In this document: piece after piece, positions 23,937 to 26,792 of the stretch
How the letters are laid out: each line of letters opens with the position of its first letter
Position numbering within the stretch: the stretch's first letter is position 1
Source of the DNA: Candidatus Rokuibacteriota bacterium
Lineage (GTDB): Bacteria > Methylomirabilota > Methylomirabilia > Rokubacteriales > CSP1-6
DNA length: 43,508 nucleotides
NCBI GenBank assembly: GCA_016209385.1
Contig: JACQWB010000185.1
Coordinates: 1-43,508 of the forward strand
Direction of reading: 5' to 3'
Position numbers and translations under genes: made by a program
Notes under the pieces: model-generated
Told to the model about the DNA's origin: nothing
Databases searched by the model: none
Seen by the model: only the letters and a program-made list of their open reading frames with translations

Positions 23937-25118
23937 TCACGAACGCTGGTCGCTCTCAGCGCGAAGGCGCCTGACCAGGGGCAGGCACGCGAGCCCCAGG
24001 CACGCGAGGGCCACGTACACGATCCCGGGCGCGAACCACGACAGGAGCGTCGTCGTGACCACCGGGCCCAGGAACGCCGCCCCGATGCGCGAGGAGTTGA
24101 CGAACCCGATTGCTTGGCCGTCCGCGCGCTGGGCGATGCGCGCCACCGCAAGCGGGAAGATCAAGGCGACGGAAAGCACCTGGAGGAACCGGAGGCCGCC
24201 GAAGAGCCACGCGTTCGGGGCGGTGGCCAGCAGACCCAGGAGAACCGAGGATGCCGTCAGCGAGGACATGATCACCGTACGCTCTCCCAGGAGATCCGCC
24301 AGCCGGGGCGCCGCGACCGACCCGAGTGCCGCGGCGGCGCCGGAGGCGAAGATGAGGAGGCCGCCGACCTCGAGCGTGGCGGCCGGCGCCACCCCGAGGG
24401 GCGGGAGGATCTGGGGAAGCACGGCCGTGAGGAAAAAGATCTGGGTGGAGCCGGCCAGCACCAGCAGGCACACCACCCCGACCTCGCGCCACGCCGCGCG
24501 TCCCGGCACGGGCTCGACGGGCGGCGGGGCGTCGGGCAGCGGGACACCCCAGCGGACTAATCCCGAGCACCCCCACAGGATGGCACCGCCAAGAAGGAAC
24601 GAGGCCGTGAAACCGAGGCGCGCCGCGGCGATCGCGCCCGCGAGCGGACCGAGCACCTGTCCGACGGTCATGGCCGACTGGATCGCCGAGACCTGTCGTC
24701 GCACGTCCTCGCCCCGGGAGCGCCCGGCGATGATGAAGGCGAAGGTGGACGCCGCGCCCATGATCCCGAGGAGGAGCCGGGCCAGGAAAAGCTCGGGAAG
24801 CGTCCGGGCCAGCGCCATCAGGAAGAAGCCAACCCCCTGGAGGAGCTCGACCACGACGTAGAAGGTTTTCGGGTTGCCGTAGCCCGCCAGCCGTCCCCAG
24901 ACCGGCGCCGTGACCACCGTCGTGAGCGGCGAGATGCCCAGGATCCAGCCCGTCCACCGCAGCGTCGCGATCGGATCCCCCGGACCGAGGCGCTGGATGT
25001 AGAATGGCAGGCTCACGTAGACGAAGGACCACGCGAAGGCGCCGAAGAACATCGCGACCGGAAGGACGACGACGCTGCGGGCGCGGGACGAGGCGGCGAT
25101 CACGCGAGCCGTCGCCAC
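23937..25118 (-). CDS. Major facilitator superfamily transporter
   Basis: A 393-residue polytopic membrane protein with about 12 hydrophobic helices. The MFS loop motif between helices 2 and 3 reads A-P-V-W-G-R-L-A-G-Y-G-N-P-K, and helix 5 has the antiporter-like VGQVLGPLAGAIAAARLG, which suggests a drug- or metabolite-efflux type. The substrate is unknown. GTG at 25118 is taken as the start because the first helix (VVLPVAMFFGAFAWSFVYV) begins near residue 17. It lies 16 bases after the probable selenoprotein gene and is likely in its operon. Confidence 0.88.
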   Translation of the reverse strand: MATARVIAASSRARSVVVLPVAMFFGAFAWSFVYVSLPFYIQRLGPGDPIATLRWTGWILGISPLTTVVTAPVWGRLAGYGNPKTFYVVVELLQGVGFFLMALARTLPELFLARLLLGIMGAASTFAFIIAGRSRGEDVRRQVSAIQSAMTVGQVLGPLAGAIAAARLGFTASFLLGGAILWGCSGLVRWGVPLPDAPPPVEPVPGRAAWREVGVVCLLVLAGSTQIFFLTAVLPQILPPLGVAPAATLEVGGLLIFASGAAAALGSVAAPRLADLLGERTVIMSSLTASSVLLGLLATAPNAWLFGGLRFLQVLSVALIFPLAVARIAQRADGQAIGFVNSSRIGAAFLGPVVTTTLLSWFAPGIVYVALACLGLACLPLVRRLRAESDQRS

Positions 25119-25134
25119 GGATCTGGACGTGAGA

Positions 25135-25704
25135 CTACCGGGGGAGCGCGGGCGAGGACATGCCGGGGACGACGCAGAAGCCCTGGGCCTCGATCCCCAG
25201 CGCCACGTTGAACTTGCTCCTGAAGTTCTCCAGGGCGACCGCGGCGGCCAGCTCCACGACCTGTGCTTCGGAAAAGTGCGCCCGCGCCCGGGCGAACAGC
25301 TCGTCGCTGACCCGCTCGCCGGTGAGCGTCATCTTCTCGGCAAACTCCAGCGCCACCCGCTCCGTCTCGTCGAAGCGCCGGCTCTCCCTGAACCGGGCCA
25401 CGTCCTGGATCTTCTCGATCGACACGCCGTATCGCATCCCCCGGGATGCGTTGATATCGATTCAGAAGGGGCAGCCGTTCAGGAGCGCCACCCGGAGGTA
25501 CACCAGGCTGCGGAGCTGGGGGTCCAGGAGTCCCGACCGCTCCAGCGCGGCGGACAGCTGCCTCGCCGCCTGGAGAATGGGCGGGCAGTGGGCGTAGACC
25601 TTGGTGGTGTTGAGGAGTGTACCGACCGCCTCGCGCTCCTTCGCGAAGATCTCCTGGAGAACAGGGTCACCACCGTCGGTCTCGATCTCTCTTACCCTCG
25701 GCAT
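25135..25704 (-). CDS. Probable selenoprotein: AhpD/carboxymuconolactone-decarboxylase family, CPFU motif
   Basis: Read through an in-frame TGA at 25464-25462, this gives 189 residues of a complete AhpD-like (CMD family) protein. The TGA falls exactly at the second redox position of the family CxxC: L-L-N-G-C-P-F-[TGA]-I-D-I-N, i.e. Cys78-Pro-Phe-Sec81, where relatives have Cys. Frame is kept on both sides, and downstream sequence (ALEFAEKMTLTGERVSDE and AAAVALENFRSKFNVALGIE) is conserved family sequence. A hairpin fitting a bacterial SECIS follows the TGA. A strong ribosome-binding site (gagggggag) precedes the ATG. Expected role: thiol/selenol peroxidase-type reduction. Naive calling would report two genes (25462-25704 and 25135-25437). 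A nonsense mutation is the alternative. Confidence 0.82.
25418..25461 (-). promoter_or_regulatory. SECIS-like stem-loop just after the in-frame TGA
   Basis: On the minus strand, GCATCC-CGGG-GGATGC (25449-25434) forms a 6-7 bp stem with a short G-containing apical loop. The loop begins about 18 bases after the TGA, within the spacing known for bacterial SECIS elements that bind SelB. The flanks atcga (from 25461) and tcgat (to 25418) can pair to extend the stem, with an internal loop. The bases are also coding, as usual in bacteria. Confidence 0.65.
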
Positions 25705-25871: not shown

Positions 25872-26792
25872 TCACCGGCCGGGCCGTCCCGACCCGCGAG
25901 CGAGCCAGGTCTCCAGCGCGGGGAGGGCATCGAGCAGGACCTCGCCCACGACCTTCAGGCTCTCGGGGGAGAGCTTGTCCAGCGTGTCCTCGGGCGTGTG
26001 CCAGTAGGGCCCGTAATCGAAATCGATCACAAGCGTCGCCGGAATTCCCGCGCGCAGGAACGGGGTGTGGTCGTCCTCGACTGCCAGGGTCTCGTCGAGA
26101 AAGTGCGCCTGGTAGCCGAGCCGCCGCGCGCTCCCCCAAATAAGATCGGTCAGCCAGCGCGTGGAGGCCGATTCGCGCCGGATGTTCAAGGCCTTGTCGC
26201 CGATCATGTCCACGACCACGACGGCCTTGAGCCGGGCCAGGTCGCCGCTGCGCCGGAGCTCGGACACCATGTGGCGGGAGCCGTAGATCCCGTCGGTGGC
26301 GCTCCACTCGCGCCAGGCCTCCTCACCGTCGAAGAAAACGACCCAGTACGTGAACTCGTGGGGCGCACGCGCCAGGCTTCGGGCCAGCTCGATCAGGAGC
26401 GCCGCGCTCGAGCCACCATCGTTGGCCCCGACGAAGCGGAAGTCGGCAAAGTACTTGGTGTCGTAGTGGCCACCCAGGAGGATGGCCTCGCGCCGCCTAC
26501 CCGAGAGTTCGCCGATCACATTCACCATCCGGACCGAGCCGTCGGGGGTCTGGGCCGTGAATGCCTGCACCCGCGCCGGGATGCCCGCTCGCTTCAGCTC
26601 CCCGAGGATGTATTCACGGGCACGGGCGAGAGCAGCCGATCCCGCCGGGCGGGGCCCGAACGCCACGAGCCGCTCCACATGACTCCAGGCGGCGGCGGAG
26701 TCGAAGGCCGAGCCGCCGGTGACCACCGGGACCGACAGGCCCAGGGAGAGGACGGCCAGCAGAAGCAGCGAGCCGGGAGGCCGGAGGGACAC
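25872..26792 (-). CDS. Animal-type glutaminyl-peptide cyclotransferase-like (M28-fold) protein
   Basis: A 306-residue zinc enzyme of the M28 fold that fits glutaminyl cyclases, which turn N-terminal Gln or Glu into pyroglutamate. Residues resembling the animal QC: GGHYDTKYFADFRFVGAND (zinc Asp), VVFFDGEEAWREWS (zinc Glu and catalytic Glu), GIYGSRHMV, VVVDMIGD, VEDDHTPFLRAGIP and GPYWHTPEDTLDKLS (zinc His after Trp). An N-terminal hydrophobic segment (LLLLAVLSLGLSVPVV) indicates export. The start is GTG, 4 bases after the HAD gene stop. A general M28 aminopeptidase is the alternative, but the F-D-G-E-E-A-x-x-x-W and E-D-D-H-x-P-F-L patterns favour QC. Confidence 0.82.
   Translation of the reverse strand: MSLRPPGSLLLLAVLSLGLSVPVVTGGSAFDSAAAWSHVERLVAFGPRPAGSAALARAREYILGELKRAGIPARVQAFTAQTPDGSVRMVNVIGELSGRRREAILLGGHYDTKYFADFRFVGANDGGSSAALLIELARSLARAPHEFTYWVVFFDGEEAWREWSATDGIYGSRHMVSELRRSGDLARLKAVVVVDMIGDKALNIRRESASTRWLTDLIWGSARRLGYQAHFLDETLAVEDDHTPFLRAGIPATLVIDFDYGPYWHTPEDTLDKLSPESLKVVGEVLLDALPALETWLARGSGRPGR

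Follow-up and report, generated by a model that had tools for sequence, protein, structure and literature searches.

Positions 25135–25704 of the window (the whole stretch of DNA that we analysed, 43,508 nucleotides) almost certainly encode, on the minus strand, a genuine selenoprotein, although we infer Sec insertion itself from the sequence. The first-pass annotation had proposed a selenoprotein of the AhpD/CMD family at this place, and three lines of evidence agree with it: a CMD-domain match that runs across an in-frame TGA, conservation of that codon among relatives, and Sec machinery genes in the same genome. The reading is strengthened by a SECIS-like hairpin directly 3′ of the UGA, a feature absent from the first-pass annotation.

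In-frame TGA at the second redox position of a CMD-family gene

The coordinates originally given for the gene were correct, and we could add its strand, which had been left unstated. The features of the coding region are as follows.

25135..25704, minus strand: putative CMD/AhpD-like selenoprotein gene, from ATG at 25704 to TAG at 25137–25135, 189 aa (read-through translation, Pfam CMD, AlphaFold2)
25462..25464, minus strand: predicted Sec codon (TGA) for residue 81, the second redox residue of the CxxC-type motif, here C78-P-F-U81 (TGA in relatives)
25174..25176, minus strand: codon for Cys177 (QGFC), the third Cys (coordinate computed as 25704-3*176; alignment)

When we translated 25704..25135 on the minus strand with TGA read as U, we obtained 189 residues containing a single U, at residue 81 within the motif NGCPFUIDIN, the read-through product running in the order MPRVREIETDGG...LLNGCPF-U-IDINASRGM...ALENFRSKFNVALGIEAQGFC.... 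Standard ORF calling yielded two ORFs, one of 80 aa (25462..25704) and one of 100 aa (25135..25437), just as had been predicted for standard annotation. The Pfam CMD model matched the read-through protein over residues 42–123 (E=1.5e-15; 57.4 bits, with a cut-off of 23), and in an alignment of this protein U81 stood opposite the second CxxC Cys of PA0269. With the TGA inside the CMD match and matching sequence on both sides of it, the claim that the TGA takes exactly the place of the second redox Cys was borne out. A search of the window for further selenoproteins returned 32 TGA frames near Cys, Ser or Thr, which by eye were GC-rich non-coding sequence or ordinary gene ends, the only exception being 25135..25704.

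Conservation of the Sec codon across phyla

TGA occupied the residue-81 codon in all 30 orthologues that we fetched from within the phylum. We also scanned 84,980 species genomes with two peptides that leave out the Sec codon, ALENFRSK and IDINASRG, and recovered 80 relatives of about 41–81% identity. Residue 81 was encoded by TGA in every one of these loci (80/80) and by a Cys codon in none (0/80), which answers the question, raised by the first-pass annotation, of whether relatives have Cys or Sec at this residue. Because the same codon is TGA in 30/30 orthologues and 80/80 scanned loci (overlapping sets, many of whose members are the same MAGs), a chance TGA is excluded, in keeping with the original argument that a random nonsense mutation would be too precise a coincidence. 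The 80 loci came from Rokubacteria, Alphaproteobacteria, Betaproteobacteria, Nitrospinota, Deltaproteobacteria/Binatia and Chloroflexi/Dehalococcoidia, the Alphaproteobacterial carriers including Reyranella, Vineibacter and Enhydrobacter aerosaccus ATCC 27094. Judged by these relatives, the subfamily of the gene seems to be exclusively Sec, unlike the known AhpD-like kinds, which have Cys homologues.

Two observations concern individual carriers. The TGA gene is found together with selB in three Alphaproteobacteria that are in culture, namely Enhydrobacter aerosaccus ATCC 27094, Reyranella sp. CPCC 100927 and Vineibacter terrae (L184, L167 and L170). In addition, a MAG contig titled Klebsiella pneumoniae (L188) carries a gene closest to the Betaproteobacterial ones, and the name of this contig is probably wrong.

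A SECIS-like hairpin directly 3′ of the UGA

25433..25450, minus strand: SECIS-like hairpin, 7-bp stem CGCAUCC/GGAUGCG, loop CGGG (stem test against synonymous shuffles)

The hairpin spans 11–29 nt past the UGA, with the stem starting after 11 nt and the loop 18 nt after the UGA; as in a bSECIS, it lies immediately 3′ of the UGA and has a G within its apical loop (CGGG). Among the 30 orthologues the stem codons were fixed at synonymous sites and the loop codon was variable. The Ala at U+5 was encoded by GCA in 29 of the 30 (the remaining one having Ser), whereas GCA made up 21 of the 743 Ala codons in the rest of the gene, and the Ser at U+6 was encoded by TCC in all 30. When we extended the comparison to the wider family (95 non-redundant Sec genes), 94% had a perfect stem of 6 bp or more at the hairpin position, compared with 21% of synonymous shuffles, and the mean stem of the 95 genes was reached by none of 300 shuffled sets. 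The same positioned-stem test on 24 Cys homologues revealed no excess (17% versus 13%, with 121 of 300 sets reaching the observed value). The stem sequence differed by clade, with pairing kept at the same place (GCAUCC/GGAUGC, GCAUCA/UGAUGC, UCCGUC/GACGGA and GCUGCC/GGCAGC). These patterns of codon use and pairing indicate that the hairpin is selected at the RNA level. Plain minimum free energy, calculated over 48 nt for the gene's own subfamily, was unremarkable (mean z -0.33, control -0.31), and the signal emerged in the positioned-stem test alone.

Sec machinery and other Sec genes of the host

The first-pass annotation had implied a selenocysteine-using organism, and the host assembly (4.57 Mb in 310 contigs, 95% complete) indeed encodes all four components of the Sec machinery, with selA, selB and tRNA-Sec together on one contig (C51) and selD on contig C175 of the same genome.

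C51:3628-4716: selA, 496 bits
C51:1670-3553: selB, 388 bits
C51:6343-6436: tRNA-Sec, anticodon TCA (UCA in RNA), 72.7 bits
G000:C175:5104-6039: selD (L014), 353 bits

The selD gene holds one in-frame TGA, so the SelD of this genome is probably itself a selenoprotein. Beyond the host, selB exceeded its curated cut-off in most genomes: 84 of 95 in the phylum, and 18 of 21 among carriers from other phyla. At E<=1e-50 we did not find selB in a few carrier genomes, such as G087 (listed as 100% complete) and G061, probably because of gaps in the MAG assemblies.

TGA stands in frame at the redox motif of 10 of the 12 CMD-domain genes in the host genome (contigs C185, C73, C295, C8, C43, C161, C28, C269, C103 and C215), the ten motifs being CPFU, CFDU, CTSU, CHYU, CHYU, CMYU, CHYU, NTHU, CEYU and SPYU. 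Sec is thereby unusually concentrated in a single superfamily. For comparison, PMC13188914 cites a MAG from Methylomirabilota in which 63 selenoproteins were predicted.

Fold and active site

An AlphaFold2 model built on a 27-sequence alignment (A3) had a pLDDT of 92.8 and an all-helical, AhpD-like fold, and Foldseek matches in the PDB with E<=0.001 were to AhpD/CMD-family proteins only, among them AhpD-like peroxidase-related proteins. In the model U81 begins a helix and lies next to C78. The closest solved structure was that of PA0269 from Pseudomonas aeruginosa (PDB 2O4D, 2IJC; TM 0.90 on target over 139 columns, 29% identity), in which Cys is accompanied by the relay residues Glu36 and His55 (PMC3141380), whereas the 189-aa protein has Sec together with S66 at the relay-Glu position (12 before the first Cys) and N85 at the relay-His position (4 after the second). 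The activity of PA0269 and of M. tuberculosis AhpD has been ascribed to the relay Glu, the two Cys, a Tyr/His and a His, and PA0269 reduces H2O2 weakly, an activity blocked by thiol-alkylating reagents (PMC3141380). Compared with the canonical five-residue AhpD relay, our protein has the pair, as CxxU, and lacks the Glu and His. Its relatives are alike in this respect: among the 80, the relay Glu was absent in 79, usually replaced by Ala, Pro or His, and the relay His was absent in 78, with Asn at that position.

Because the relay Glu and His are missing, AhpD-type peroxidase chemistry is not simply transferable to this protein. The earlier description of a peroxidase-type enzyme is thus unproven. 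No peroxiredoxin was noticed among the recurrent neighbour genes. A third Cys, Cys177, was invariant across the 27-sequence alignment and is missing from the SxxU paralogues, which lost the first Cys.

These paralogues belong to a Rokubacterial CMD clade with SxxU, AxxU or TxxU motifs, in which the relay-His position holds Arg or, in one case, Gln; the clade comprises L082 (G000:C215:7695-8216), L066, L067, L069, L070, L072, L074, L076, L078, L085, L087–L089 and L095. From their motifs, its members appear to have a Sec-only active site from which the partner Cys has been lost. In the one member of this clade that we scanned, the NCBIfam match was to NF053654, at only 105 bits.

Neither relay residue was present in 116 of 153 Sec proteins, a tally that lay behind the idea that Sec had made the Glu/His relay dispensable. 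We rejected this idea, because the closest Cys homologues (L222, L223 and L224; 38–43% identity) likewise have Asn and lack the Glu, and because a tree-based independent-pairs test of Sec against relay loss detected no association (6 pairs, with the relay trait differing in ~0.5). The three Cys homologues keep both Cys177 and Asn85, and their genomes (Betaproteobacterium, Enhydrobacter) also hold Sec copies; they may be Sec-to-Cys reversions.

Relation to known selenoprotein families

AhpD-like selenoproteins were already known from other bacteria, as the first-pass annotation had recognised: CxxU cases have been reported since 2005, when they were described from the Sargasso Sea metagenome (PMC1088965), and AhpD-like selenoproteins are among the commonest in GOS, where AhpD-like 1 alone comprises 299 Sec and 902 Cys proteins (PMC2398784). 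The Sargasso and GOS AhpD-like proteins (COG2128, TIGR01926) share with ours the superfamily, the CxxU motif and a downstream bSECIS (PMC1088965, PMC2398784). The GOS families, which we compared by description only, have many Cys homologues, whereas the subfamily of our gene has 0 Cys in 80.

The nearest NCBIfam model, NF053654 ('GroundWater_YciW', YciW-related (seleno)protein), represents, together with the Cys proteins L222–L224, the sister clade in the tree (support 85–90). This clade likewise has CxxUxxxN (CEFUQDIN) and lacks the relay Glu, and all 27 members of the A3 alignment match its model (best E 5.5e-52). However, the 189-aa protein scored 159.5 bits, far below the 310-bit cut-off, whereas a member of the NF053654 clade, L063, passed it with 336.6 bits. 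Position 177 also separates the two groups, being Trp or another residue in the NF053654 sister clade and Cys in the subfamily of our gene. By these comparisons the protein appears to be a well-supported new member, with a subfamily of its own, of the already known CxxU AhpD-like selenoproteins, and the traits that would distinguish this subfamily are exclusive use of Sec, absence of the Glu/His relay and the extra invariant Cys177.

Gene neighbourhood

23937..25118, minus strand: MFS transporter gene, 16 nt downstream (Pfam MFS_1)
25872..26792, minus strand: M28-family peptidase, upstream neighbour (Pfam Peptidase_M28, E=2.9e-37)

The first-pass annotation had suggested co-transcription with an MFS exporter. 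The adjacency is real (16 nt), and an MFS gene lies 24 nt downstream in a relative of the same genus, but the link is weak, since only 4 of the 34 loci from Rokubacteria have an MFS gene no more than 400 nt away. The pairing with MFS is thus for the most part a local one, and the conserved neighbour is the M28 peptidase, found directly upstream in 24 of the 34 loci. Outside Rokubacteria the neighbours differ; those recognised by eye include an SDR, which immediately follows the gene in three contigs of Alphaproteobacteria, and a tripartite-transporter binding protein. With so few MFS-linked loci and different neighbours in other phyla, we set aside the MFS gene as a guide to function.

Proposed mechanism and alternative readings

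The whole is very probably best explained by hairpin-driven Sec insertion that supplies U81 as the nucleophile of an AhpD-like redox enzyme. Support is strong for the insertion mechanism, in which the 3′ hairpin would recruit SelB with Sec-tRNA(UCA) to a ribosome at the UGA of codon 81, Sec would be inserted, and translation would continue to the TAG. For the chemistry, we infer the nucleophile role of U81, the resolver role of C78 and the substrate. Since selenols lose their proton at neutral pH, U81 would be the attacking nucleophile, its selenolate reacting with a substrate that is oxidised or electrophilic; the likeliest are a hydroperoxide, a disulfide or a quinone-type oxidant. C78 would then resolve the selenenylated intermediate as an Se–S bond, and a cellular thiol would re-reduce the enzyme, possibly through Cys177 near the C terminus. 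That the reaction is that of a peroxidase or thiol-oxidoreductase has, in our estimate, about an even chance.

A different chemistry is suggested by Bmp8, the tribromopyrrole debrominase (PDB 6OHI, 6OHJ), which was among the best profile and structure matches (E=7.9e-19; TM about 0.78, the fold being shared along most of the chain). Like our protein, Bmp8 lacks the relay Glu and His, having W and F at those positions in a HMMER alignment; it has Cys where the 189-aa protein has Sec. A Bmp8-like selenoprotein would use its selenolate to attack an organohalide or aromatic halogen and release halide by reductive dehalogenation, as is done with Sec by deiodinases (PMC7144113). However, identity to Bmp8 is only about 21–22%, loss of the relay is unspecific for dehalogenation in that Cys members without it exist (L222–L224), and no halogen-related gene was seen in the examined neighbourhoods of relatives, so we regard this reading as unlikely. 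We likewise give a small chance to the broader analogy of an obligate-Sec, relay-free selenolate enzyme that carries out, for example, the reductive removal of halogen from halogenated aromatics or pyrroles. If it were true, the reaction would be impossible with Cys, which would account for no Cys orthologue being found, and one relay-free chemistry would be common to soil, groundwater and marine bacteria.

Returning to Sec insertion, two other readings of the TGA are exceedingly improbable. A change in the genetic code or a nonsense suppressor might have the TGA decoded as some other amino acid, and the open frame by itself is silent on which residue enters. Yet the genome encodes SelA, SelB and a tRNA-Sec with anticodon UCA, its selA, selB and MFS genes are open without in-frame TGA, the TGA of our gene sits at a Cys/Sec redox site, and the hairpin accompanies TGA genes and not Cys homologues. 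That the TGA is a real stop, in a pseudogene, through a sequencing error or between two separate short proteins, would suit the two ORFs of standard calling but has hardly any likelihood given the same TGA in 80 loci of several phyla, a protein conserved on both sides of it, synonymous codons frozen in the hairpin and a complete encoded Sec machinery.

The gene adds a well-supported selenoprotein subfamily that the nearest NCBI model scores far under its cut-off and that standard calling cuts in two, and the analysis documents heavy use of Sec in Rokubacteria. The cultured carriers are possible experimental hosts in which the need for Sec is testable at the bench. Because the subfamily appears to keep Sec across several phyla with no Cys orthologue, it would make a good test case for reactions that truly need selenium.
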